DNA of 59,836 bases. Origin: a virus. The notes under the pieces were generated by a model that was not told the DNA's origin, ran no database searches, and worked only from the letters and a program-made list of their open reading frames with translations. The stretch lies in the IMG/VR virus record IMGVR_UViG_3300026184_000061, positions 1-59,836 of that record. One strand, given 5' to 3'. The translations under genes and the position numbers were made by a program. Position 1 is the stretch's first letter. The number at the start of each line of letters is the position of its first letter. Shown here one piece after another: positions 24,569 through 50,941 of this stretch.

Positions 24569-25071
24569 GCTGAGGGCCCCCGCTGGTCTAGATCAGGGTC
24601 TATATACGAAAGCTCAGGTTCTTCGACCGGTTCGTGCAGTACCCGATATGCCACAATGTCCCAGTCGAGATCGTGATGTGCCCAATCCAACCATCGAGAA
24701 GGTCTGTTGGATTTTGATATTGTTCCGTCACGAAACTTGACCTCTACTACGGTGTCGTCCGGTACCGGGGCACGGGAGTCACCCGTCCATGGGGTCCAGT
24801 TCATCGCCCGTGCGACACCCGGAATTTCTTGCTCTCCCTTGGGTTTAGCCACATCTTCCTTCATCTTGGCTTCTTCTACCTCGATGTACTTGTCCAGGAA
24901 GTGCTTGGCTTTGTAAAGATCCTGCAGACCATTCTTGTCCTTCCACCGGCTGACGTACTTGGTGATCTGACCTTGGAAGTAATCAAGGTCATTAGCCGCC
25001 ACGAAGTCCCAATGCTGAATCTTCTGCTTCTTGTAGTGATCGCCGCCAACCTGAGTTTCGTTTGCACCCAT
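24565..25071 (-). CDS. DUF3310 protein
   Basis: A 168-residue protein. The N-terminal 70 residues show the DUF3310 pattern: QVGGDHYKKQKIQHWDFVAA, FQGQITKYVSRWKDKNGLQD, LYKAKHFLDKYIE. This family is widespread in phages and sometimes labelled nucleotide-kinase-related, without proof. The C-terminal 80 residues are a separate small domain rich in Trp and Asp. Confidence 0.8.
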   Translation of the reverse strand: MGANETQVGGDHYKKQKIQHWDFVAANDLDYFQGQITKYVSRWKDKNGLQDLYKAKHFLDKYIEVEEAKMKEDVAKPKGEQEIPGVARAMNWTPWTGDSRAPVPDDTVVEVKFRDGTISKSNRPSRWLDWAHHDLDWDIVAYRVLHEPVEEPELSYIDPDLDQRGPSA

Positions 25072-25721
25072 CAGAAATATTCTCCCGGCAATTCGTGAGA
25101 AGGGGTCGACATTTCGACCAGAATCTCGTTTACGGTATAATTGATGTAGTGAAGCATTGCAATGGCCCTCGGAGAAAGCTCGCCCAACTTAGCGGTCATG
25201 GCTCCCAAGCAGTTATTGAACATAGGCCGTACGAACTGATTGCCTAGCATGAGCTGATCGCGACAGAAAAGCATCAGATCAAACGTGTCCGCCCACTTCA
25301 GGATTTGCTGCTCTTCTGGCGTCAAATCATCATAGACCTTGATGCCGTGCCTGTCTAAGAAGGCATCTTCCTCCGCATCAATAGCTTTGCGAATATCTTC
25401 AGACGCCCATTTGATAGTTGCAGGAGCATCTCCTGTATGTTGCTCAGCTATGTCGTGAAGCAGGCAGGCTCGAAGCAGATTGGCACTTGCCTTCCCCTCC
25501 GTCAGCCAAAGAGCCATGACTGCGACGCCGTGACTGTGTTCTGCATTGGTGTGAGTCCCAACGATGTGAGGGACAACATGAGCTCGGCGAACATTCCCAC
25601 CGAACCTGACAACATTGATCCATTCTGGCTTATCCAATTTTCTTTTCTCCTGGGGTTGTAGTCTACGATGAAGCGCGGAAGCCATTTCCAATGCCGCCGC
25701 CTGGGGGGTTTTGTCTGTCAT
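25071..25721 (-). CDS. HD-domain phosphohydrolase, YfbR-like 5'-nucleotidase
   Basis: A 216-residue protein with the HD metal ligands in order: AEHSHGVAVMALWL (His), CLLHDIAEQHTGD (His-Asp) and KWADTFDLMLF (Asp). It is closest in pattern to YfbR, which dephosphorylates deoxynucleoside monophosphates. Beside dCTP deaminase and thymidylate-synthase-like genes it may shape the dUMP/dTMP pool. Overlaps of 1-4 bp with both neighbours show one operon. Confidence 0.75.
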   Translation of the reverse strand: MTDKTPQAAALEMASALHRRLQPQEKRKLDKPEWINVVRFGGNVRRAHVVPHIVGTHTNAEHSHGVAVMALWLTEGKASANLLRACLLHDIAEQHTGDAPATIKWASEDIRKAIDAEEDAFLDRHGIKVYDDLTPEEQQILKWADTFDLMLFCRDQLMLGNQFVRPMFNNCLGAMTAKLGELSPRAIAMLHYINYTVNEILVEMSTPSHELPGEYF

Positions 25722-26233
25722 TCGGCCTCCAACCCGCGAAGAGTTTCTTCTCTGCAGGCGAACATGCTGTAACCCTGCGACCGAGACAACATGGCTAACT
25801 GAATCATCATGAGACCGATATCATCAAAGATCGGTGTATCAGGTTTGCTCTGGATAGGGCGATTTGTAACCGCGAGCTGTACAATATGCAACGCATCTTC
25901 CGTGTCGCCGCCTAAGTCAGCGAATAGAACTAACGCCGCTTCTAAAAGATTAGCTCGCCTAACTTCAGTATCGTATAGTTCGCTGGGGTTGCTGTAATCC
26001 CTCAAAAGCAGTTCGTTCACCCGATCTTGGAATGTGTTGCCGTAGATACCCTTCCGACGAATCACTACCTCCATGGGGAAGCTTTCCTGCCCGTTCAAGC
26101 CGTGCTTGAGGATATGAACCTGTTCGTCGTCGAAGATTTGGCGTACAGCATCTACCTGCTCCGGCTCCGTGATTTCTTGGACGATCTGCCCTTTTTGGGC
26201 GAGCTTTTCTTCCCAGGTTTCTTCGGCTGACAT
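25718..26233 (-). CDS. hypothetical protein, helical, possibly NTP-pyrophosphatase-like
   Basis: A 171-residue acidic protein. ATG 26233 has GAGGAC about 8 bases upstream. Its C-terminal half (RRANLLEAALVLFADLGGD, then DDIGLMMIQLAMLSRSQGYS) is all-helical with acidic residues spaced as in MazG-like enzymes, but I cannot identify the full metal site. Position in the nucleotide block fits. Its first 82 bases overlap the basic tail of the upstream gene. Confidence 0.5.
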   Translation of the reverse strand: MSAEETWEEKLAQKGQIVQEITEPEQVDAVRQIFDDEQVHILKHGLNGQESFPMEVVIRRKGIYGNTFQDRVNELLLRDYSNPSELYDTEVRRANLLEAALVLFADLGGDTEDALHIVQLAVTNRPIQSKPDTPIFDDIGLMMIQLAMLSRSQGYSMFACREETLRGLEAE

Positions 26234-26496
26234 GACGTTGTCCTCTTCGTTTTGGTTGATTTCTTGGCTCTCACTTTCTTGCTAACTGCTTCCAGCATTT
26301 CTTCCAGCTTCATACAGGTGGCGCAGTCGCAGTCCTTTGCGTGCACCATGCGCATTCCACGCAGATAGCTTTTTTGCCGTTCTACGATCATAGACGGCAA
26401 TTTCTTTTGAGCTACTTTGATAACGTCCTGCTTCTTACCTGAGATGTTTACCTCCCGTGACCTGGGTGTCGCGGTTGTACTGGCCTTTCGCGGCAT
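26152..26496 (-). CDS. hypothetical protein with Lys/Ser/Arg-rich tail
   Basis: A 114-residue protein; ATG 26496 follows CAGGAGG by 6 bases. The front half has a CDCATCMKLEE Cys cluster, and from about residue 75 the chain is almost only Lys, Ser, Arg and Pro, ending in SKKSRSRSR, which suggests nucleic-acid binding. The tail is encoded over the start of the next gene in another frame. Its own start overlaps the dCTP-deaminase end by 62 bp. Confidence 0.55.
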   Translation of the reverse strand: MPRKASTTATPRSREVNISGKKQDVIKVAQKKLPSMIVERQKSYLRGMRMVHAKDCDCATCMKLEEMLEAVSKKVRAKKSTKTKRTTSCQPKKPGKKSSPKKGRSSKKSRSRSR

Positions 26497-26992
26497 AGGA
26501 CGCCTCCTGAGGAACAAGTTCATGTTCAAAGAACACCATCTGACCGATCTTCATGCCAAGCTCAATGATCAGATGATGGTGCGTGACGTTCTTGAATTCC
26601 ATGGTCAGCACCGAGCCATGCCACCCCGCATCGCACCACCCCGCCAGCATGTGCTGAAGACCGTTGCGGGCCAGCGTAGACTTCAGCTTATACTCAGCGC
26701 TGATGTATCGCGGCAGGTGGAAGACCTGCTCTGTCTGCGCCAAAATGAAGTCGCCCGGCGCTAAGATGTACTGACTTGCTTCTTCCGTCAGGACACAGGG
26801 TTTCAGCTTGATAGATTCCTTTGCGGCCAAGTTCACCATTCTCTCGTGGTATGCCTCAGGCTGTACTTCGGCTAGTATATGCTTACCTAGCGTTAAGTCA
26901 ATCGATGCCGAATTAACGTGTTCCGGCCTGGAATTTTCAATGACGCCTTCCTTGATGAGAAGAAGCAGTTGGTTATGGCTGAGTAACGACAT
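26435..26992 (-). CDS. dcd: dCTP deaminase / dUTPase-fold protein
   Basis: A 185-residue protein of the trimeric Dcd/dUTPase fold: SASIDLTLG, APGDFILAQTEQVFHLP, the active-site KSTLARNGLQHML, GWHGSVLTMEFKN with the catalytic-type Glu, and GMKIGQMVFFE with a C-terminal KGQYNRD. Dcd makes dUTP from dCTP. Here it would feed dUMP for the thymidylate-synthase-like enzyme at 27443. A GGAG ribosome site precedes ATG 26992. Confidence 0.8.
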   Translation of the reverse strand: MSLLSHNQLLLLIKEGVIENSRPEHVNSASIDLTLGKHILAEVQPEAYHERMVNLAAKESIKLKPCVLTEEASQYILAPGDFILAQTEQVFHLPRYISAEYKLKSTLARNGLQHMLAGWCDAGWHGSVLTMEFKNVTHHHLIIELGMKIGQMVFFEHELVPQEASYAAKGQYNRDTQVTGGKHLR

Positions 26993-27225: not shown

Positions 27226-27450
27226 CTAATCCTTGACTCGGCCGCAAAGTTTATAGAGAAACTTGAATCCTATGTTCTCCGGATATTTATCCAGACCGCA
27301 CTTCTCGCAACACCACGCATCACCCATGCCCCCACCGCCGGTTTTGAATCGATGCCAACAGAACCCTTGATTATGCCCGAACCAGAAAATTACAGCGGAC
27401 ACCAACATTAGTGCCCACCACGCGAGCCAGTACATATACGGATTAGGCAT
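27226..27450 (-). CDS. small membrane protein with zinc-finger-like tail
   Basis: A 74-residue protein: one membrane span (MYWLAWWALMLVSAVIFWFG) followed by Cys/His residues, including FCWHRF and CCEKCGLDKYP. A membrane-anchored metal knuckle is likely. It overlaps the thymidylate-synthase-like gene by 8 bp. Function unknown. Confidence 0.55.
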   Translation of the reverse strand: MPNPYMYWLAWWALMLVSAVIFWFGHNQGFCWHRFKTGGGGMGDAWCCEKCGLDKYPENIGFKFLYKLCGRVKD

Positions 27451-28462
27451 TCAGATTCTCCTTCGCTTTCAAGCGGCGTTCAAGCCACTGTACCATCGCT
27501 ATCGTCCAATCGACGTAGTGCGGCATGTGATGCTTTATGATTTCCAGTGCAGAACGAGTGTCGCCGCTCTTATGTCTGAACCACGCTTCGTGGGCGGGTA
27601 ATGCGACCACCCGGAAAAACGGTTCCTTGAAATGACTGGGATCCCAGATACCTGCTTCTGAGTCTATGAAGAACTGTTGTAGTTCGTCATCCCAGCATTT
27701 TGGATTCACTATCAGCGGTATAGGATTTGCACCGAGCTTTTCATATACACTCGTATCCGCGCTAGAAGGACGTATATCTTTCAAAGCGGCCCACAACGGA
27801 TTGTCTACGTAGACATGCAACGAATCTGAGATTTGCCGGTACTCCCCCACTTCCACGCCTACCATCGCTGCGATGTATTCTTGCAGCATGGAAAACTGGA
27901 CTATGTTGGCGCCGTAAGCACCCCAGATGAGATCATTGCTACGACAACAGACAGTCATGTGCAGTCTGCGCTCGCGGATCTTGAAGAAGATCATGTCATT
28001 GCAGGGTATGTCCTTACTTTCTACGTTTAGATCAAGAGTAGGTTTCCATATCGTCAGCACAGCCCGACGAGTGCTGTGTTCCCTGTGCAGCAAATCAATG
28101 ATTTCTTCTATCTGATCTATGTTGTGTGCGGAGCGTAGACGGTAGCCGTAGGGTGCATGGAAGATAAGGCCGTCGTCACTGTACGCCTTCATCTGCTGAT
28201 TGAACTGTGCCAGCCACTTGACATCAGCGCGACCACGCAAAATCCACAAAGATTCCATCAGGTGGAAAAAAGGGTTGGCGTTACGTGCGGCATTGAACAG
28301 AACGCGCTGCTTAGGAAGCTCGTACACCGTACACACCGGCTCACTGAATTCCAGCGTTTTCTGGCCATCTCTTGGGGCTATGGTTCGCGCCGTGTCTTCT
28401 TGCAGCATTTGGATGGCCTTTGGCAACGCTTCGTTGACATCATGCGCTCGGATTACAATCAC
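27443..28462 (-). CDS. thymidylate-synthase-like enzyme, probable dUMP hydroxymethylase
   Basis: A 339-residue protein of the thymidylate synthase fold. The catalytic Cys is at residue 154 (KDIPCNDMIF), followed by CCRSNDLIWGAYGANIVQF, where the Asn near residue 186 matches the position that selects uracil over cytosine, and SDSLHVYVDNP with the conserved His/Tyr. Phage members beside thymine-hypermodification genes make 5-hydroxymethyl-dUMP instead of dTMP. Its neighbours (pyrophosphorylase-like, P-loop and GT-like genes) favour that product; ordinary dTMP synthesis is the alternative. Confidence 0.8.
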   Translation of the reverse strand: MIVIRAHDVNEALPKAIQMLQEDTARTIAPRDGQKTLEFSEPVCTVYELPKQRVLFNAARNANPFFHLMESLWILRGRADVKWLAQFNQQMKAYSDDGLIFHAPYGYRLRSAHNIDQIEEIIDLLHREHSTRRAVLTIWKPTLDLNVESKDIPCNDMIFFKIRERRLHMTVCCRSNDLIWGAYGANIVQFSMLQEYIAAMVGVEVGEYRQISDSLHVYVDNPLWAALKDIRPSSADTSVYEKLGANPIPLIVNPKCWDDELQQFFIDSEAGIWDPSHFKEPFFRVVALPAHEAWFRHKSGDTRSALEIIKHHMPHYVDWTIAMVQWLERRLKAKENLNA

Positions 28463-29395
28463 CTAAATTCTCCTTTCTAATTGCTTATACAGCTTTTTCA
28501 CGCGCTTCTTCAATTGACTGCGAAAATCTTTTGCAAACCGTTCGTATTGAATCTCAGCGATGAGTTTGGATTTGGGCAGGAATTTTTCTACATCCTTAGG
28601 TCCCGCCACTATAAAATCCTTTACATCAAAGCCTGCTCGCATCAGCGTCGGCGCTGCTTCTTCGTCTATGAACTGAGCCACCTTGGCGGCCAAGCATTCA
28701 TAGAATCTGTTAGCGGGGGAGCAGTAGTAGCGATGGCTGTACTCATCCTCCATGTAGACAGTAGCGCGGTAATGTTGTAAATCTTGCAACAAGTTTCGCA
28801 TCGGACCGAGCGCGTTTATCTTTTTGTCCAGCCCCAAAAATTTTTTCTTGGCTTGCGCTGAAGAAGACGTGGTTACTTCGTACGACGTACTGGCTAGGTA
28901 TTTTTCCAAGTCCGCTTTGCGACCTTCCCGAAATGCTCCGTAGTAGAATAACCCCGGCTCTCGGTACCTATGCTGGACGAAGGTTTTGAATCGTTCAAAG
29001 GGCAGCGCATTCCAATTGACATAGGCGCTTTCCGGCGTACGAAGCTTGTGTTCCACAGTCCCCCACACGATAGGGGGCCGCAAGACTCCTCGGTCATCCA
29101 TCCAACCTTTCTTGCGCATTACCTTACCCACTTGCGATGGAGGCGCAATCGTGTAGTCGTTCTGGATGAATACGAAAGTCTTAGCTTTGCGTACCATCTC
29201 AGCCATTTCTTCACGCCAGTTGCAGAAGGCAGGCGGTCCGTTCACCATAAGAATGACGTCGTTCTTTTCGGCCTTGCCTGTACTCCTGTCCTTGATATCC
29301 AACCCCAAGGTTTCGGCCAGGAACTTAGCAATATTGATACTTGCCAACGTGCTGTTTCCATCTACCTTCGTGGGGTGAGTTATAATAGCCTTCAC
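28463..29395 (-). CDS. GT-B-like glycosyltransferase of the DNA-modification cluster
   Basis: A 310-residue protein, one base before the thymidylate-synthase-like gene. The second half has the GT-B-type pattern FYYGAFREGRKADLEKYLAS, YMEDEYSH and SPANRFYECLAAKVAQFID. The N-terminal half has ILMVNGPPAFCNW and FVFIQNDYTIAPP. It may attach sugar to modified thymine or act on another acceptor. Fold assignment is by pattern; donor and acceptor are unknown. Confidence 0.65.
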   Translation of the reverse strand: MKAIITHPTKVDGNSTLASINIAKFLAETLGLDIKDRSTGKAEKNDVILMVNGPPAFCNWREEMAEMVRKAKTFVFIQNDYTIAPPSQVGKVMRKKGWMDDRGVLRPPIVWGTVEHKLRTPESAYVNWNALPFERFKTFVQHRYREPGLFYYGAFREGRKADLEKYLASTSYEVTTSSSAQAKKKFLGLDKKINALGPMRNLLQDLQHYRATVYMEDEYSHRYYCSPANRFYECLAAKVAQFIDEEAAPTLMRAGFDVKDFIVAGPKDVEKFLPKSKLIAEIQYERFAKDFRSQLKKRVKKLYKQLERRI

Positions 29396-29396
29396 G

Positions 29397-30173
29397 TTAT
29401 TCCTCCAGCTTCAATTGTCTGGTCAGCTTACGTAGATTCTTCGCCAGGGTGGAGTCTAGTTTGTCCGCTTCATACCACGTCATCGGCGTGGATTTACGAA
29501 ACCCCGTACCGCGATTGGCCGCAGGAAGTACCGGCATGTCTACCTTCTCCAGCCCGGCTTTGCGAAGCATCCCCAGCCACTTCTTTTCCATGTCTTTCAG
29601 ACGAATAGTTTCGTCACAATTATCGCGGCAGTTCTTCATCATTTCATAAGTGACTTGAAGACATCGCAGATCTTTCGGGCGTACATAGGGGTCGTCCAGC
29701 AACCCTACTTCTGACATCCATTCATAAGTGGTCAAAGGAAAAATTTTCGCCATACTGCGAGCCACTTCCAGCGGATGACGAACAAGGTTTACGATGTACT
29801 GTGCATCGAAGTCCCCTGCGCGTTCACCTACGTGAACTGTACGTTGGTCCTTCACCCACGAATGATACGGATACCAATGGTGATCGCACTGGAAATACAG
29901 AGAAACAGTGCCGTCCTTGCCGACGTATTCGTGCCCTATGTCGAATCCAGCCGCTTGCAACGTGCGGGCAAGCCACGTTGTTCCGCATCGGCCAGTACCT
30001 ATGACAGCCAGCGGAATACGGATAGAACCGCGAAGCTTGTCTACTCCCCATCGCTCCACCTTTGTACCGCTCTTGTTAGCTGCTTCCGTATTCTCGTAAC
30101 GCCATACTTTACGACCGCTATGATGGGGGGAGAGGATTTCCGGCTTTATTTGAACTCTTCTAAGGTCAGTCAT
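29397..30173 (-). CDS. sulfotransferase-like P-loop enzyme
   Basis: A 258-residue protein; ATG 30173 lies two bases after the upstream stop (a GTG at 30179 is possible). The 5'-phosphosulfate loop GTGRCGTTWLA is at residues 59-69 and the 3'-phosphate motif LVRHPLEVARS at 130-140, the two hallmarks of PAPS-dependent sulfotransferases. It sits between the GT-like gene and the aGPT-pyrophosphorylase-like gene. It may sulfate a DNA base or host glycan, or act as a divergent hydroxyl kinase in thymine hypermodification. Confidence 0.7.
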   Translation of the reverse strand: MTDLRRVQIKPEILSPHHSGRKVWRYENTEAANKSGTKVERWGVDKLRGSIRIPLAVIGTGRCGTTWLARTLQAAGFDIGHEYVGKDGTVSLYFQCDHHWYPYHSWVKDQRTVHVGERAGDFDAQYIVNLVRHPLEVARSMAKIFPLTTYEWMSEVGLLDDPYVRPKDLRCLQVTYEMMKNCRDNCDETIRLKDMEKKWLGMLRKAGLEKVDMPVLPAANRGTGFRKSTPMTWYEADKLDSTLAKNLRKLTRQLKLEE

Positions 30174-30175
30174 GA

Positions 30176-31021
30176 TCACTTCGCTCCTGGATACTTGCTT
30201 CGCGGACGACCTTCGTTATTCTTGGTACGCATGTACTTGTCGAACTCGCACAGGCAATTCTGCAGATTCTGCGCATCCAAGAAGGGCATCTTCTTTTCAG
30301 CGATGAAATCCTGAACCAGAGTGTGCAGTGCCATCAATCTATCACGCCACGCATCTTCTAACCAGGGACTCTCTGGAGGTAGCCCGATAACCCGATTCAA
30401 TCCGCGCCGACTGCCCGGTCCGCTTGCAGCCCAATACTTCCAGTCTTTAGCTTTCTTAAGGACACCGACATGCTTTGTGTCGGCGATGACCTGCGCCGCG
30501 ATGAAGCTGCCCATGCCGTCATACTGCATCAATCGTTCGTGGAAATCGTTTAGAGTATCTCCTTTCTGAGGGCGCAACCTATTCCTGTCTCGCCACAAAG
30601 GCGTCAAAACATGGGTGGCAAGATATTCTGCCTTGTCCATAGCATTCCCATTGGTAGATACGATGTACGCACCGCTGAAAACTTTTTCACGACGCTTCTT
30701 ACGATCGTGCATCACTTTGATAAACTTCTTCGGATTCCACGGTACGGGGTAGCCTATTTCTTCCAGCGTGTCAGGCCAATTGACCAGACGGGCCACGGCC
30801 ATTGCGAACCAGACGTCAGGATCCTTAGCATTCGGCTTCAGCCAATGTTTGTGAATCCACTGCGTAACTGTGTCGTCTTCACGGTAGACGTTACAGAAGC
30901 GATAAGACTGCAAGATCGTGTCTTGCGTCCAAGGTTTAGCACTTCCACAACGACGACGCAGTAGAATACTATACCGTTCTTCTATCCAGTACAGAAGCTT
31001 TTGAAACATGTCTTTCTTCAT
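30176..31021 (-). CDS. alpha-glutamyl/putrescinyl-thymine pyrophosphorylase-like (aGPT-Pplase/HMUDK-helical)
   Basis: A 281-residue protein with the family opening: WIEERYSILLRRRCGSAKPW, TQDTILQSYRFCNVYREDD, then MAVARLVNWPDTLEEIG and a C-terminal helical part with MQYDGMGSFIAAQVIADT and CEFDKYMR. Related proteins act on 5-hydroxymethyl-dU pyrophosphate in phage DNA to replace the pyrophosphate with an amino or other group. It overlaps the genes on either side by 4 bp or less, tying it to the block from 27443. The final modification cannot be read from sequence. Confidence 0.82.
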   Translation of the reverse strand: MKKDMFQKLLYWIEERYSILLRRRCGSAKPWTQDTILQSYRFCNVYREDDTVTQWIHKHWLKPNAKDPDVWFAMAVARLVNWPDTLEEIGYPVPWNPKKFIKVMHDRKKRREKVFSGAYIVSTNGNAMDKAEYLATHVLTPLWRDRNRLRPQKGDTLNDFHERLMQYDGMGSFIAAQVIADTKHVGVLKKAKDWKYWAASGPGSRRGLNRVIGLPPESPWLEDAWRDRLMALHTLVQDFIAEKKMPFLDAQNLQNCLCEFDKYMRTKNNEGRPRSKYPGAK

Positions 31022-32052
31022 TTTTGTACCTTCACAAATGTTTGGTTGATGAGACGCCAGACAACGCTTTTAGCAATTCCACGAGACTTCGCTTCCATGA
31101 TCAGTTCTTCAACGGTGATTCCTTTCTTTTTCTTTGCTACAACACCGCACAAAGTTTCCAAAGGAGTGCCGGGCTTCGCCTCCTTTTCACCCGGCATCAT
31201 TACTATCTCATCTCCTGTCAGTACGCTCCAATCCACCTTTCCGAGTGGTGCAACCTGACCCATCTTCCGACCGGGCTTTGATTTGGCAGACACAAGCTTT
31301 TTCTTCTTTTCTTCAGCAGTGCGGCGCGGTTTCTTACCCTTGTTAGCGCGACGAGCTTGGGCGGCACGCTGCCTTTCTTCCTTGGCGGCTTCTCGTTTAG
31401 CCAGTCTGTCGGCCTTCTTTTTCTCTCGCTCAGCCTGCTTGGCTTCGCGACGCGCTTCCTTGCGTTCAGCACCCGAAAGATGGGTATACGATACCGTCGG
31501 ATTGGCCGTGCGCGGTTCCGTGTAGGTTTTATTTGGGTCTTCATTATTTCTAAACTCCAAATGAGGTTCTAGTTTAGCGTAGTCAGATATTCCGCAATGG
31601 CCAATGCGAATATCTTCCCACACTCCCAGCAGGGCAAACACAACATTCTTCGTTCTGTCGTACAGCACACTGAGCAGTTCGTCTTCCTTTGCTTTCACAC
31701 CTAAGTCTTCTAGAAGTGCGACATGTTGGCTGGGAATCAACCCCCCGATACGAGCTTTTAATTGATTTACCCAATTCCAATCTCCGGCCGGATCTGTACG
31801 GTCGTAAAGAGGAACCGACATGTGCTGTCGTAAAACGTACACTGCTTCTTCAACGCTACGAACGTCGGCCTCTGCTGCCGGGTTTTTTCTTGCCAGCGAC
31901 TTTTTTCTTGCTGGAGACTTTTTTCTTACCGGCGACTTTTTTCTTACCGGCGACTTTTTTCTTACCGGTGACTTTTTTGCGGCCGCCCTTTTTCTGGACG
32001 ACTGCACTTTCGCTTTCGTCTTCTGTGAACTTACTTGTTTTCGCGCGGCCAT
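31018..32052 (-). CDS. Lys-rich protein with KKSPVR repeats and C-terminal domain
   Basis: A 344-residue protein from ATG 32052 (AGAGG upstream). Residues 20-55 are a tandem of KKSPVR units like histone-H1 tails; the middle has a folded acidic part, then a long Lys/Arg/Glu helix, and the end (GITVEELIMEAKSRGIAKSV) looks like a small winged-helix. DNA binding is likely. The first 200 bases overlap the SNF2 gene in another frame, and both frames read the same 18-bp repeats. Confidence 0.6.
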   Translation of the reverse strand: MAARKQVSSQKTKAKVQSSRKRAAAKKSPVRKKSPVRKKSPVRKKSPARKKSLARKNPAAEADVRSVEEAVYVLRQHMSVPLYDRTDPAGDWNWVNQLKARIGGLIPSQHVALLEDLGVKAKEDELLSVLYDRTKNVVFALLGVWEDIRIGHCGISDYAKLEPHLEFRNNEDPNKTYTEPRTANPTVSYTHLSGAERKEARREAKQAEREKKKADRLAKREAAKEERQRAAQARRANKGKKPRRTAEEKKKKLVSAKSKPGRKMGQVAPLGKVDWSVLTGDEIVMMPGEKEAKPGTPLETLCGVVAKKKKGITVEELIMEAKSRGIAKSVVWRLINQTFVKVQK

Positions 32053-33595
32053 TAGGGGCACCTCTTCTAAACGAAATATTGTACCTCTGTTCCATTGCTT
32101 CTAGGAACGCTTTTTGTTGATCATCTTTTGCTTCACGCACCTTGATAACAACTTCATCAATAGTGCCTAGCGCCGTAGGGTGGTGGACACGAATCCTGGG
32201 AACTTTGACGCCTTGACGCCATACCCTCTGCAAGAACTGTTCATAATCTTCTAGGTTATAAGTTTCCGTAAAGATATAGATGTTCGAGCAGGTCCCCTCT
32301 TGCAGATTGAGCCCATGCGCGATGGAAGCTGGATTACCTGCTAAGTAGGGGAGTTCTCCGCGATTCCATTGGTCGCAGATCTTATCTGCTTCCTTATCGC
32401 TAACCCCACCACCGATGTACGGCATGTCTGGAAATATCTTGCGGATACGTTCAATTTCATGCGTATATTCGTAAGCGATAAGTAAAGGCTCACCTTGAAG
32501 TTCTTCAATGATTTCTTCCAGATCCGCCAACTTTTCTTCGTGGATTTCTAGCACCTTATGATGCTTGTCGTAAATAGCACCGCCTGTGAACTGACGTAAC
32601 TTACCTGTAGCGACAGCCGCGTTACTGGCTACGATAACCCCTTTTTCCACCTCCAAAATAAACTCTTCTTCTAGCTCCTTGTACTTTTTCATCGTTTCCT
32701 CGGAGAACTCCAAGGCTCGCGGTACATGCACAAGGGGAGGCAGATCCAACTCTTCGTTACCATAGCGAACTACGATGTCGCCAATAGCATCGTAAATCTG
32801 TTCCTCTGCGCCAGGCAAAATTTTGAAGTCATAGCCCATATACCCTGATGGGTAGAAGTAGCGGTTGCGGTACTGCGTGATGTACGCACCTAGTCTCTGA
32901 CCGCCGTCCATCATGTAGACCTGCCCAAAAATGTCCATTAGATTCTTAGGCACCGGCGAGCCCGTTAGAAGATTGATATACTTCACTGGATGCTTTTTAT
33001 CATGCACCATCTTACGGAGCATTTTGAATCGCTTAGTCTTTGTGTTTTTAATTTTACTGGATTCGTCAAACACAATCATGTCGAAGAATTCGCCCATAGC
33101 TATGCGATGCTTCTTCAACGTGCGTTGCAGCCATTCCAACCCTTCGTAGTTAATTAAGAAGACGTCGGCATTAGATTCTAGCAAACGACCTTCTTTGTGG
33201 GGTCCGTGCAGGATAGTCGTGACCCACGGCAGCATCCATTTATCAGCTTCCTTGGGCCATACGTTATATACGATACGTCGCTTCGCTACGACCAGCATGC
33301 GACGGACATGCCCGAGCTTACGGCGTAATCCGTAGATGCTGTAAGTAATCATGGTCTTTCCAAGACCAGGAGCTAAGAAAAAAGCTGCGGACGGCCGCGA
33401 AACGCCGAACCGAATAGCTTCTTCCTGATACTTGTGCGGTACGAATCGCTGAGCCTTTTTAGGAGTGTGTTCGCCTTCCAAGACTCGGTCACTGCGTTTT
33501 ACGTGCGCTGCTTTTTTCTTTGCGACGCGCTTTTTTCTTGAAGCGTTCGTAGATTTCGAGCGCTTCTTCGTAGGTGTCGACCGTCCAAACGCCAT
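31856..33595 (-). CDS. SNF2-type DEAD/DEAH helicase
   Basis: A 579-residue superfamily 2 helicase. Walker A APGLGKT is near residue 75, Walker B/DEAH-like VFDESSKI near 172, motif III LLTGSPVPK, and the C-terminal helicase domain ends with EQFLQRVWRQG (motif VI). The first 40 residues are basic and the last 45 are VAGKKK repeats. It may remodel DNA-protein complexes in replication or recombination. Both ends overlap neighbouring genes by more than 100 bp. Confidence 0.85.
   Translation of the reverse strand: MAFGRSTPTKKRSKSTNASRKKRVAKKKAAHVKRSDRVLEGEHTPKKAQRFVPHKYQEEAIRFGVSRPSAAFFLAPGLGKTMITYSIYGLRRKLGHVRRMLVVAKRRIVYNVWPKEADKWMLPWVTTILHGPHKEGRLLESNADVFLINYEGLEWLQRTLKKHRIAMGEFFDMIVFDESSKIKNTKTKRFKMLRKMVHDKKHPVKYINLLTGSPVPKNLMDIFGQVYMMDGGQRLGAYITQYRNRYFYPSGYMGYDFKILPGAEEQIYDAIGDIVVRYGNEELDLPPLVHVPRALEFSEETMKKYKELEEEFILEVEKGVIVASNAAVATGKLRQFTGGAIYDKHHKVLEIHEEKLADLEEIIEELQGEPLLIAYEYTHEIERIRKIFPDMPYIGGGVSDKEADKICDQWNRGELPYLAGNPASIAHGLNLQEGTCSNIYIFTETYNLEDYEQFLQRVWRQGVKVPRIRVHHPTALGTIDEVVIKVREAKDDQQKAFLEAMEQRYNISFRRGAPNGRAKTSKFTEDESESAVVQKKGGRKKVTGKKKVAGKKKVAGKKKVSSKKKVAGKKKPGSRGRRS
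31880..31978. repeat. 18-bp tandem repeat read in two coding frames
   Basis: About five units related to GACTTTTTTCTTACCGGC (plus strand), starting at 31898, 31916, 31934 and 31952 with degenerate edge units. On the minus strand one frame gives the SNF2 C-terminal repeats (VAGKKK) and another gives the N-terminal KKSPVR repeats of the next gene. Unit length is exactly six codons. Confidence 0.9.
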
Positions 33596-37844: not shown

Positions 37845-39695
37845 TCATGCAGCAGCCTCCCACTTCTTCATACGAGCCCAACTAACAGCACCCTTCTTAC
37901 CGTCTGACAACATAGGTAAGTCAAACTCCACGCTCTCCATCGCTTCACGAAGCAATTTCATATTCTTACGCTCCGTACCTTTGTCACAGGTGCACAGTAG
38001 TTCGTCATGTACCTGCAACATCATGGCCGCGTCGCTGCCAAACGCGTCATAGACCCGAATCATCGCTTCTTTGGTGCAGTCAGCGGCGCTGCCTTGAATC
38101 AACAGATTCAGCATCTTGTACTCAAAAGTCTTCATGCGACCCGCTATCATACGCGGCTCTTCGACCCAATACAGCCGACCGCCCCAAGTGCGAAGCGGTT
38201 CGTCACGACGGGCCATCTTCTTCAATTCCTTACTTAGGTCTTTGACCCCAGGCAACGCACGCAGAACAGCGTTTTTCAGGGCTGAAGCTTCTTCCGGCGT
38301 ACTACCTGTACCCTTGGCCAGCTTATCCACGCCCATGCCATAGATAAGACCAAAGTTCGTGGTCTTAATCTTTGGACGTGGGTACTCTATACCCATGTTC
38401 TGCAGAATCAAACTGCCGACGAAAGTATGTACGTCCATCTTCGGGTCTTTGCGATACTGTTCTAACAGCTCGCCGTCTTCGAAATGAGCCAAGATACGCA
38501 ACTCTTGCTGCGAATAGTCTCGGCCAATCAACAGCCGACCAGGAGGAGGTATGATGTAATCTCTAAGTTTGGGGAGGCCTATGGTGTACGGCTTAGATGC
38601 GTCCTCCGGGTCGCGAGGTATGTTTTGAAAATTCGGTCGGCTAGAAGAAAATCGCCCGGTCTTCGTACCGCTGCCGCCACCGTTGAAGTCATCAGAACTA
38701 CGCACCTGATTGAACGACGGATATATAAGTCCGCCGGTCTGCTCCGCTTCTACTAACCACGGCTCGGCGAACGTGTTCATGTAGGTACTTAGAACGCCGT
38801 ATCGCGCTAACAGGGTGACCAACTTTTTGTCGTTGCAATACTTCAAAAGATTTTCGCGCTTTGTGCTGCGATTGCCTTTGGCCGTCAGTTCCCACGTAGT
38901 TACTTTGCCGGTTCGGTCTAAGGCATCCGCCAGTTGAACGGAGCTCCCTATGTTAAAATCTTCACCGACCTTTAAAGAACGTTTAATCTTGTTCTCTATT
39001 TCCTCGTGCTCTTTTTCCCATTTCAGTAAGTCCCGCTCTAGGCGCTTCTTCGCGACAGGAATACCGTGCTTTTCCATAGCCACTACAATCGGGGCCAGTT
39101 CCAATTCTCGCTCATAAGCTCCGTCCATACCCATATCTGAGATACGAGGGCGCAAGAACTTAAACAGTTTCCATGTACGTTCAACGTCGCCGATAGCATA
39201 CTTACCCACCAAATCACCAGGCGCTCGCCAGATATGTTCCCCCCAAGTCGAAGGTTTGCGCTTCGCTTCGGGGATATTGGCAATAATCCAATCTTTCAGC
39301 CGGTCCCGTTCAGCAGGGACAAGTCCGAGCAAATCTTGGGCCAAGGGCTTCAACGCCAATTCGCGCGCTCTTGGGTCGTACAGATACGCCAAAAATTGCG
39401 TATCTTCCCAATGGCGAGGCCAGCTTTTCTGACCGTGATGCGCCAAAGCCACTTCGATATCAAAAGGTCCGTTGTGGAAGACCATCTTTTTACGACTCAT
39501 CACCTTTACGATTTCGCGAGTCGCTTCTTTCTTGGTACAGTTGTTTTTACTTGAGTGCCCCCACGCGAAGTATTTTTTCATCTGGTCTGTCATGATAGCG
39601 ACACCGACAGGTTCTGGGGGATAGTGGAAGGGCCGCTTGCCGATAGGCTTTGTTTCAAAGTCCAGTACAGCAAAGTCAGACAGACTAAGTTTCAT
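37845..39695 (-). CDS. DNA polymerase, family A
   Basis: A 616-residue replicative polymerase. ATG 39695 has GGAGAG upstream. The 3'-5' exonuclease shows VLDFETKP near residue 10 and the NGPFDIEVAL region; the polymerase shows motif A GRDYSQQELRILAH, motif B IKTTNFGLIYG and motif C LQVHDELL. It copies the phage genome, and must accept modified thymidine triphosphates if the modification model is right. It lacks the 5' nuclease of bacterial Pol I. Confidence 0.93.
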   Translation of the reverse strand: MKLSLSDFAVLDFETKPIGKRPFHYPPEPVGVAIMTDQMKKYFAWGHSSKNNCTKKEATREIVKVMSRKKMVFHNGPFDIEVALAHHGQKSWPRHWEDTQFLAYLYDPRARELALKPLAQDLLGLVPAERDRLKDWIIANIPEAKRKPSTWGEHIWRAPGDLVGKYAIGDVERTWKLFKFLRPRISDMGMDGAYERELELAPIVVAMEKHGIPVAKKRLERDLLKWEKEHEEIENKIKRSLKVGEDFNIGSSVQLADALDRTGKVTTWELTAKGNRSTKRENLLKYCNDKKLVTLLARYGVLSTYMNTFAEPWLVEAEQTGGLIYPSFNQVRSSDDFNGGGSGTKTGRFSSSRPNFQNIPRDPEDASKPYTIGLPKLRDYIIPPPGRLLIGRDYSQQELRILAHFEDGELLEQYRKDPKMDVHTFVGSLILQNMGIEYPRPKIKTTNFGLIYGMGVDKLAKGTGSTPEEASALKNAVLRALPGVKDLSKELKKMARRDEPLRTWGGRLYWVEEPRMIAGRMKTFEYKMLNLLIQGSAADCTKEAMIRVYDAFGSDAAMMLQVHDELLCTCDKGTERKNMKLLREAMESVEFDLPMLSDGKKGAVSWARMKKWEAAA

Positions 39696-39697
39696 TA

Positions 39698-39973
39698 TTA
39701 CTCTCCTACGGTGATGGAAATAGCGACGACAGCCGAGACTGAACAAACACGCCAAGATACTCTACTGCGATAATACCTGTAAGCGTCGGCATACATGCTG
39801 CCGAACTGCTTCCAACTGTGTTCCCAATCAGTCTTCTGGCGGAAGAATTCAGCCTGCGCCGCTATTTCCATTCTCTGTGTCGCCGCTTTTTCTGAACCTA
39901 CATACACAGACTGCGGCCAGTCGTTGCACATGATGACATACGCTTTCGTATCCGTTGTTGTTGCTATTGTCAC
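39698..39973 (-). CDS. hypothetical protein
   Basis: A 91-residue protein immediately before the polymerase gene. It has a short alpha/beta start (KAYVIMCNDWPQSVYVGSEK) and an aromatic helix (DWEHSWKQFGSMYADAYRYY), with a hydrophobic end. Short conserved proteins of this look are common in phages; function unknown. Confidence 0.5.
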   Translation of the reverse strand: MTIATTTDTKAYVIMCNDWPQSVYVGSEKAATQRMEIAAQAEFFRQKTDWEHSWKQFGSMYADAYRYYRSRVSWRVCSVSAVVAISITVGE

Positions 39974-43523: not shown

Positions 43524-43709
43524 TCAGTGGCTTGCAGCGTTGACCAACGCTCGCGGGGTTCCGCAGATAAAGCGGGTTTGCTGGTATACGAAAATGTGAC
43601 TGTCAGCTACGCACTGACGCGCGATGTTACGTTGCGCATTGTCCCAGCCCCATGAATACAGTACATAGGCCAGGACAATGGCGAGTATTAGGTAGAAAAT
43701 AGACTTCAC
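43524..43709 (-). CDS. small membrane protein
   Basis: A 61-residue protein from GTG 43709, overlapping the upstream TGA. One membrane span (SIFYLILAIVLAYVLYSWGW) precedes a short soluble part with two Cys. No family recognised. Confidence 0.5.
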   Translation of the reverse strand: MKSIFYLILAIVLAYVLYSWGWDNAQRNIARQCVADSHIFVYQQTRFICGTPRALVNAASH

Positions 43710-44269
43710 GGCTTCCAACCCCCCTTTCGCAAGTCCGCCAAGATGTCTTCCTTTTTAGCAGTGGTCTTGTCTGCAGGCGCGTGAAGATTATCCAGATACC
43801 GAGCAAATTCCGGCATCTTCTTTCGGACTTCGTCCACGGTGGAGCACTCTCTTAACAGGTTACGCACTTTGGTGCGAATAGCGTATCGACGTGACTGCTG
43901 TTCTCTATACTTCACACCCATCAACTTGACCTGAGCCTCTACCGCTTTAGGGGGTACGAAAGACATCTTCGCTCCCTCGCTCGCAAACCCTCTTTCTCTC
44001 ACTTCGTCTTCCGTATCTTTTGGATAAATCTTCACTCCTGTGAGAAAAACATCGCCGAGGAATGTGTGGGTGTTATACCGCACTACCTGCAGATAGCCGC
44101 GAAGCTCGGGGTCGTCGTACAACTTAGCCACTTCCTTCGGCATCTGTGTTCTCGCCGAGCTTTGCAACAGTTCCGTCGCTTCGGCACGGTAATCAGTTTC
44201 AGGCAAGTCGTCCAAGACCGCCTTCAGTATCAATGAACGTAGCTTTTCATTCAGCTTACCTTTTAACAT
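43706..44269 (-). CDS. conserved phage protein, possibly Nmad5-like
   Basis: A 187-residue protein with an N-terminal helix (KLNEKLRSLILKAVLDDLPE), a YDDPELRGYLQVVRYN core and a long C-terminal helical part. The outline resembles Nmad5, a domain named for association with nucleotide modification, but I am not certain. If confirmed it would strengthen the DNA-modification reading of this genome. Confidence 0.45.
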   Translation of the reverse strand: MLKGKLNEKLRSLILKAVLDDLPETDYRAEATELLQSSARTQMPKEVAKLYDDPELRGYLQVVRYNTHTFLGDVFLTGVKIYPKDTEDEVRERGFASEGAKMSFVPPKAVEAQVKLMGVKYREQQSRRYAIRTKVRNLLRECSTVDEVRKKMPEFARYLDNLHAPADKTTAKKEDILADLRKGGWKP

Positions 44270-49917: not shown

Positions 49918-50526
49918 TCAGGCTCCTTTCTTGAAGGGATGTGCCGACGCTTTAATGAGTATCTTATCCATCAGCACGCCGATGATTGAATGGATGTGAC
50001 TGTCCAGATCGCCGGCGGCTGTGTTCAGGTATATATCCGGCTCCATCGGCGCTTCGTACGGTGCGTCCAGGCCGGTCAGCCCCTCTACGTCACCCATTTC
50101 CGCACGGGCGTACAACCCTTTCGGATCTCGGCTGGCGCACACACGCACGGGCGCATCGCAGTGAACCTCAAGGAAGTCCTTACCGAACAGCTTGCGCACT
50201 TCTTCTCGGTCGCGGGAGTATGGCGACACCATCGCTACGATTGTAATAGTACCCACACGGAGGAACTGATTGGCTACGGCAGCCACGCGCCGCACCGCTT
50301 CGTGTCGGTCAAGGCGTTGGAATCCCAGATCGCGGTTCAGATCTTCTCGGAGTTCGTCACCGTCTAGAACCGTTGACTTGAGCCCCATATCAAACAGCAG
50401 TTGGTCCAGCGCCTGCGCAATCGTGGTCTTCCCCGAAGCGGGTAGTCCCGTGAGCCAGACGATACAACCTCGGTGCTGATTGGCCTGCTCATGACTTTCG
50501 CGAACGTTGCGTACTTCTTCAGTCAT
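49918..50526 (-). CDS. cysC: adenylylsulfate (APS) kinase
   Basis: A 202-residue protein, ATG 50526 chosen. It has the full CysC pattern: Walker A GLPASGKT at 27-34, VLDGDELREDLNRDLGF, HEAVRRVAAVAN, VSPYSRDREEVR, then DPKGLYARAEMGDVEG and LTGLDAPYEAPMEPDI. CysC phosphorylates APS at the 3' position to give PAPS, the universal sulfuryl donor. The sulfotransferase-like protein at 29397 would use PAPS. No sulfate-reduction gene (CysH) is seen, so supplying sulfation is the likelier purpose than sulfur assimilation. Confidence 0.9.
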   Translation of the reverse strand: MTEEVRNVRESHEQANQHRGCIVWLTGLPASGKTTIAQALDQLLFDMGLKSTVLDGDELREDLNRDLGFQRLDRHEAVRRVAAVANQFLRVGTITIVAMVSPYSRDREEVRKLFGKDFLEVHCDAPVRVCASRDPKGLYARAEMGDVEGLTGLDAPYEAPMEPDIYLNTAAGDLDSHIHSIIGVLMDKILIKASAHPFKKGA

Positions 50527-50941
50527 TATCAATCCCCTTCAAAATGCCGTTCAGACGATCAGCCGCTTCGTCGTAAGGGGTAGCCGACTGAACCAATCGG
50601 TCCCGAACAAATTGTAGATCTTCTTTACTTACTAGCGTATAGCCTTCTGGAACGACTGTTTTCTGCTGTTGTAGTGACATACGTAACGCGACCATTCCGT
50701 TGTCTAGATCCACCCATTCGCCGACGCGTACAGACTTTCCATTTGAGTCGTGTACGTCGACAAAGTAGCTATGCCCTGGTCCTGGCGGCTTGTCGAATAC
50801 GACGTCTACATAATCAGGAGGAACTATTTCTGGGTCCGTCATTATATTCTCAAACAGATGCGAAATGAATTCCTTATCTTCAGTATTCTTCGCAGTTTGT
50901 GAAAGAGCCATCAGCATCCACCACAGTTTGGTTTTAGCCAT
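50519..50941 (-). CDS. hypothetical protein
   Basis: A 140-residue protein; ATG 50941 overlaps the upstream stop. It has VGEWVDLDNGMVALRMSLQQ and VPEGYTLVSKEDLQFVRDRL, the second a common C-terminal helix of phage proteins. It overlaps the APS kinase gene by 8 bp. Function unknown. Confidence 0.55.
   Translation of the reverse strand: MAKTKLWWMLMALSQTAKNTEDKEFISHLFENIMTDPEIVPPDYVDVVFDKPPGPGHSYFVDVHDSNGKSVRVGEWVDLDNGMVALRMSLQQQKTVVPEGYTLVSKEDLQFVRDRLVQSATPYDEAADRLNGILKGIDND

Follow-up and report, generated by a model that had tools for sequence, protein, structure and literature searches.

A predicted thymine-hypermodification operon with a candidate sulfation branch in an uncultured phage

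The IMG/VR record IMGVR_UViG_3300026184_000061, a virus record of 59,836 bases analysed as a whole and called the window below, carries one compact leftward operon predicted to serve thymine hypermodification. Four adjoining open reading frames (ORFs), all on the minus strand, occupy positions 27443-31021, as a first-pass annotation had claimed, and are named here by their first coordinates: 27443 (hydroxymethylase-like), 28463 (glycosyltransferase-like), 29397 (sulfotransferase-like) and 30176 (HMUDK_hel family). Junctions between the four are -4, +1 and 0 bp. A sequence resembling a ribosome-binding site precedes most of the starts. The first-pass observation is incomplete: an adenosine 5'-phosphosulfate (APS) kinase encoded elsewhere in the window and a dCTP deaminase encoded nearby (Table 1) belong with the operon.

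The 27443 product matches Pfam Thymidylat_synt (4e-21) and phrog_5131 (1e-110). Among solved structures it comes closest to CMP 5-hydroxymethylases (2.9e-19), with thymidylate synthases behind at 1e-12. Catalytic residues are placed at Glu70 and Cys154. Asn186 takes the uracil-selecting position (Asp179 in the T4 dCMP enzyme), which bears out the earlier reading of a thymidylate-synthase-like enzyme with a uracil-selecting Asn; hydroxymethylases outscore synthases. Asp151, three residues ahead of the Cys, aligns with Asp145 of T4 dCMP hydroxymethylase and with the Asp of MilA; the same position is Leu143 in Escherichia coli thymidylate synthase and Asp in the T4 and MilA hydroxymethylases (PMC6400193). 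Tyr94 is aligned to Trp83 of E. coli thymidylate synthase. By sequence comparison, 27443 is best read as an enzyme like a deoxyuridine monophosphate (dUMP) hydroxymethylase, and the predicted production of 5-hydroxymethyldeoxyuridine (hmdU) is the step with the best support.

The 30176 product is a member of Pfam HMUDK_hel (PF18723; 7e-45, 154 bits against a cut-off of 25), about 35-61% identical to many phage homologs, with no match in a sequence search of the PDB. The first-pass label of 30176, aGPT-pyrophosphorylase/HMUDK-helical, holds in its second part. PF18723 is named aGPT-PPlase1 in some records, its present name being HMUDK_hel. The word pyrophosphorylase is misleading: the amino acid:DNA transferase (ADDT) family is PF18724, distinct from PF18723 and absent here. 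No match at E<=10 was found in the window for ADDT or for the 5hmdU DNA kinase PF18748.

HMUDK_hel loci were gathered for comparison (80 loci, L009-L088 plus the window; 68 distinct, window included). Near HMUDK_hel, a kinase is found in 20, a TAGT glycosyltransferase in 17 and a GT-B protein in 11. In M6, Pam3 and RHph_I65 the gene adjoins a true 5hmdU DNA kinase (PF18748). Kinase and TAGT occur together in none of the 68 loci (expected 5, p=9e-4), and all four nearby ADDT genes have a kinase alongside. Mutual exclusion of kinase and TAGT implies that HMUDK_hel serves at least two branches, one of them kinase-free and with glycosylation. The window belongs to this kinase-free glycosyltransferase branch. 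The gene beside HMUDK_hel is exchangeable across the 68 loci, being a kinase, a TAGT or a GT-B gene; with the exclusion of kinase and TAGT, this makes 'kinase helical domain' probably too narrow a name for the family. Absence of PF18748 and ADDT makes the amino-thymine route of M6 and ViI unlikely in the window. The comparison drawn at first with the amino and putrescinyl thymines of M6, ViI and phiW-14 is weak for the same reason, and the kinase-free branch fits better.

The 28463 product has no confident family from sequence. It gave no match in PHROGs, NCBIfam or a PDB sequence search; three relatives match Glyco_trans_1_2 weakly. The C-terminal domain has an invariant Glu, E233. An AlphaFold2 model from 8 alignment rows (predicted local distance difference test, pLDDT, 62) gave 14 Foldseek matches at E<=0.001, nearly all of them GT-B enzymes (best 1.3e-4, probability 1.0). 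28463 is therefore predicted to be a GT-B-fold glycosyltransferase-like protein, a first-pass assignment borne out by the predicted fold and not by a sequence family. Homologs lie beside HMUDK_hel at about 10 other loci and in Escherichia phage EP_H11. In EP_H11, as in the window, the GT-B gene stands beside HMUDK_hel; a thymidylate-synthase-family gene and a P-loop gene (AAA_28) also adjoin it. A match of 28463 to AtTam9 (0.0078, under the cut-off, in 1 of 10 members) is weak and was not used.

The 29397 product carries both motifs by which sulfotransferases bind 3'-phosphoadenosine 5'-phosphosulfate (PAPS). The 5'-phosphosulfate-binding loop is GTGRCGTTW (residues 61-69), with G61, G66 and T67 invariant among 13 homologs; the 3'-phosphate-binding Arg...Ser motif is RHPLEVARS (134-142), with R134 and P136 invariant and S142 kept in at least 90% of them. 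The first-pass reading of a P-loop protein with both motifs is upheld by this conservation, and the predicted fold agrees with it. The Walker A lysine is absent. H83 and E84 presumably stand where tyrosylprotein and heparan sulfate sulfotransferases have the catalytic Glu, judged by spacing from the P-loop. Of the 13 family members, 8 match the Sulfotransfer_3 profile. A structural model of 29397 (pLDDT 69) has PAPS sulfotransferases in each of the first 12 places among its PDB fold matches, the top one with probability 0.99 and a marginal E-value of 0.02; the highest-ranking viral matches that carry a name are sulfotransferases too. No match was obtained in PHROGs, in NCBIfam or by tblastn against 50,697 phage records. 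In PDB sequence searches the single sequence had no meaningful match and the profile reached an E-value of about 0.01. 29397 is tentatively predicted to have the PAPS-sulfotransferase fold. It resembles the CurM sulfotransferase domain, heparan sulfate 3-O-sulfotransferase 1 and tyrosylprotein sulfotransferase in both PAPS motifs and, on this tentative prediction, in fold, and differs from them by very low sequence identity. A role for 29397 as the missing 5hmdU kinase was considered and ruled out by the lack of a Walker lysine, the lack of a PF18748 match and a predicted fold that is sulfotransferase-like, not that of a kinase.

Three alignment-guided scans for relatives of 29397 yielded three close full-length relatives, followed by a sharp drop in similarity; a genome-contig scan with the subfamily gave no relative. 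The sulfotransferases of the window, L093/L069, L115/L041 and L116 form one group (85/88 support), with DHDWYP and GERRSDF as motifs specific to this close clade. All four lie on contigs with thymine-hypermodification genes, against 0 of 43 remoter relatives (Fisher p=6e-6). For the 43, flanks were checked for HMUDK_hel, hydroxymethylase, ADDT and TAGT, and 16 of them were also checked across the whole record for HMUDK_hel and the thymidylate-synthase family. The order in L093/L069 is basic protein, sulfotransferase, small ORF, TAGT, HMUDK_hel, hydroxymethylase, HD. In L115/L041 the sulfotransferase directly follows the basic protein, and radical SAM, TAGT-like, HMUDK_hel and hydroxymethylase genes come several kb on. 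L116 is a different hypermodification cluster containing the same subfamily: in L116:8367-11287 the sulfotransferase has a 220-aa N-terminal extension and lies between ADDT, immediately upstream, and a P-loop kinase (PF18751), immediately downstream. General gene order is common to the window, L069 and L115, so the context of the clade is partly common descent; the arrangement of L116 is independent. A glycosyltransferase accompanies the sulfotransferase in all three HMUDK_hel records that have one, and PF18748 is absent from the three other clade records as well.

The APS kinase is canonical by every test applied to its sequence. It matches PF01583 (4.8e-59, 199 bits, cut-off 21.1) and TIGR00455 (213 bits, cut-off 138.7), and the motifs GLPASGKT, DGD, SPYSRDR and RDPKGLY are intact. 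Its ATG is at 50526; the listed ORF begins at a TTG at 50532. A match at 1e-10 occurs in only 5 of 50,697 phage records, and one or more of these 5 is a bacterial chromosome. A canonical APS kinase of comparable quality is found in 0 of 49 other HMUDK_hel records. Phage cysC is usually interpreted as support of sulfur assimilation (PMC10914622, PMC9529941). The window enzyme, of the same family, shares a base-modification phage with a sulfotransferase. The window lacks a PAPS reductase gene, so sulfate reduction is no obvious destination for PAPS from the phage enzyme. In G001 the APS kinase profile finds no more than a weak P-loop match, divergent in sequence (L091:973-1848, minus strand): a P-loop kinase-like domain fused to a nucleotidyltransferase-like domain (GRFQPFHGGHK), which was not counted. 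As a separate observation, an 89-kb viral contig (L008:4903-9181) has an APS kinase, a UDP-sugar dehydrogenase-like gene, a glycosyltransferase and several sulfotransferase-like genes in a row, possibly a sulfated-glycan cluster.

Table 1. Features of the window relevant to the predicted modification pathway.
Feature	Position	Strand	Basis
dUMP 5-hydroxymethylase-like enzyme, thymidylate synthase superfamily	27443..28462	-	Profile matches, best solved match, placed residues
Predicted GT-B-fold glycosyltransferase-like protein	28463..29395	-	AlphaFold2 model and Foldseek; homologs beside HMUDK_hel
Sulfotransferase-like protein	29397..30179	-	PAPS-binding motifs GTGRCGTTW 61-69 and RHPLEVARS 134-142; predicted fold
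HMUDK_hel protein (5-hmdU DNA kinase helical-domain family)	30176..31021	-	Pfam PF18723
APS kinase (CysC), PAPS-forming	49918..50526	-	PF01583, TIGR00455, motifs
dCTP deaminase (dUTP/dUMP supply)	26435..26992	-	PF22769 5e-31; TIGR02274 98.4 bits, cut-off 92.8
HD-family nucleotide phosphohydrolase	25071..25721	-	YfbR-like 3.7e-10; phrog_6047 1.6e-36
Lys/Ser/Pro-rich basic protein, operon head	31018..32061	-	ORF; 4 bp overlap with the HMUDK_hel gene
Putative family A DNA polymerase, presumed hmdUTP incorporation	37845..39755	-	Sequence reading and placement with respect to the hydroxymethylase gene, comparable to M6 and Pam3

Among the neighbouring genes, the HD phosphohydrolase recurs beside the hydroxymethylase in related loci. 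Histone-H1-like, Lys-rich basic proteins stand at the operon head or directly before the sulfotransferase gene (window 31018-32061, minus strand; L069:4709-5878; L115:8999-9922), the latter position, directly upstream of the sulfotransferase gene, being that in L069 and L115. A short Lys/Arg/Ser-rich basic ORF (26152-26529, minus strand) lies between the dCTP deaminase and 25718 and overlaps both. An ORF at 43706-44269 (minus strand) has a weak match, just under the cut-off, to Nmad5 (nucleotide modification associated) and adjoins a DUF7192 and an AAA_5 gene.

The balance tips slightly towards a phage whose DNA carries PAPS-derived sulfate esters on a thymine replacement, as sulfo-glycosyl-hmdU or sulfooxymethyl-dU, placed by a DNA-dedicated sulfotransferase that is fed by the phage's own APS kinase. 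The more specific pathway, hmdU-type thymine hypermodification with a sulfation branch in which hmdU is incorporated, glycosylated and then sulfated, is proposed tentatively. 27443 would convert dUMP to hmdUMP, with dUMP fed by dCTP deaminase 26435, and the phage polymerase would put hmdU into DNA. HMUDK_hel 30176 would present the hmdU base in DNA, and the GT-B enzyme 28463 would glycosylate its hydroxyl with a host sugar nucleotide as donor. APS kinase 49918 would make PAPS from host APS, from which 29397 would transfer sulfate to a sugar hydroxyl to give sulfo-glycosyl-hmdU. The gene layout, the family assignments, the placed residues, the APS kinase, the absence of PF18748 and ADDT and the conserved context are observed; in this scheme we infer the order of the steps, the role of HMUDK_hel, the sugar, the position of the sulfate and DNA as the acceptor. 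Sulfation of the sugar is favoured because a glycosyltransferase occurs in the three HMUDK_hel records with a sulfotransferase and because sulfotransferases commonly act on sugar hydroxyls. The first-pass suggestion of a modified thymine, possibly glycosylated or sulfated, fits the evidence and, as a prediction, gains strength from the phage APS kinase and the conserved hypermodification context.

The main rival to sugar sulfation is direct sulfation of the 5-hydroxymethyl group of hmdU, in which 29397 would replace the missing kinase and sulfate would be either part of the end product, 5-sulfooxymethyl-dU, or a leaving group in a subsequent substitution. It accounts for the absence of PF18748 throughout the clade and for the position of the sulfotransferase gene as immediate partner of HMUDK_hel (4 bp overlap), which is the place of the kinase in many relatives; benzylic-type sulfates are good leaving groups. 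The accompanying glycosyltransferases, the lack of an ADDT in the window to use an activated base and the P-loop kinase present besides the sulfotransferase in L116 speak against it, and it is rather unlikely. Less likely again is that the sulfotransferase and APS kinase act outside DNA, for instance on a virion protein or a glycan of the host surface, and that their gene position is incidental. Remoter relatives do lie in tail or glycan clusters, L008 combines a relative with cysC in a polysaccharide-like cluster, and the usual reading of phage cysC as sulfur-assimilation support (PMC10914622, PMC9529941) agrees with it; the start/stop overlap with HMUDK_hel, as in translational coupling, the 4 of 4 against 0 of 43 contexts and the clade-specific motifs speak against it. 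It is improbable that 29397 has the sulfotransferase fold without using PAPS, having been recruited as a DNA-binding or other group-transfer partner of HMUDK_hel: similarity to characterised enzymes is low, the structure model is weak and Glu84 is Gln in L116, but both PAPS-contact motifs are kept in a divergent family and the same phage encodes a PAPS maker. It is very improbable that the phage only glycosylates its hmdU and carries the sulfotransferase and APS kinase as inactive passengers; kinase-free clusters of glycosyltransferase, HMUDK_hel and hydroxymethylase without a sulfotransferase are common, but the APS kinase keeps every catalytic motif, and those of the sulfotransferase are conserved. 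A plain thymidylate synthase role for 27443, with unmodified DNA, is hardly credible, since, although the protein lies within the thymidylate synthase superfamily, it matches hydroxymethylases better than synthases, has at position 151 the Asp of the T4 and MilA hydroxymethylases in place of the Leu of E. coli thymidylate synthase (PMC6400193), and neighbours an HMUDK_hel gene.

Several points weigh against the proposed pathway. The match of 29397 to Sulfotransfer_3 (PF13469) covers the P-loop part only and, at 2.7e-4 and 21.7 bits, is under the gathering score of 27, so the protein is filed as sulfotransferase-like and not as a PF13469 member; the Foldseek E-values of its model are marginal. 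The cysC gene is 19 kb away from the operon, a canonical copy is missing from the other three clade records, and the gene occurs as an auxiliary gene in other phages (62 in 7,334 high-quality freshwater phage genomes; PMC10914622). G001 and G003 have a gene order like that of the window phage, so the four clade cases are not fully independent. In L116, ADDT and a P-loop kinase stand beside the sulfotransferase and no glycosyltransferase was seen, so the acceptor is not a sugar in every case; what the clusters have in common may, to judge from L116, be a last decoration added to the group already in place, whether amino acid or sugar. The phage is uncultured.

Amines, phosphates and sugars are the groups that phages are known to attach in thymine hypermodification. 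A 5hmdU-based system of HMUDK kinase, HMUDK_hel and ADDT serves Pseudomonas phage M6 and Salmonella phage ViI. M6 resembles the window in hydroxymethylase, HMUDK_hel, HD phosphohydrolase, DNA polymerase and a similar order; in the window, unlike both phages, PF18748 and PF18724 give way to a sulfotransferase, a GT-B enzyme and an APS kinase. Kinase-free HMUDK_hel clusters of uncultured phages, with TAGT or GT-B, share with the window a glycosyltransferase beside HMUDK_hel and hydroxymethylase; unlike the window, most are without a sulfotransferase, and none of those tested has a canonical APS kinase. Bacillus phage SP-15 shares with the proposed product a sugar and an extra negative charge on a thymine derivative; it bears phosphoglucuronolactone and glucose on dihydroxypentyluracil, with no sulfate reported, and is an example of a thymine derivative on which a charged sugar is tolerated (PMC5977210).

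A literature search, which did not cover the main reviews, found no sulfated DNA base, in agreement with the first-pass remark that no described base sulfation of this type was known to its author, and no sulfotransferase in phage base modification. To our knowledge, no DNA-acting PAPS-dependent sulfotransferase has been described. As far as could be found, sulfate on a DNA base would be a new class of DNA modification. If true, it would add a lasting negative charge and open another means by which restriction systems are blocked or attracted. It would tie phage sulfate activation, so far seen as support of host metabolism, to DNA protection. A DNA sulfotransferase would also provide enzymes for placing a sulfate handle on DNA. 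With the gene sets of the window, L069/L093, L115 and L116, recombinant enzymes can put the question to a direct test.

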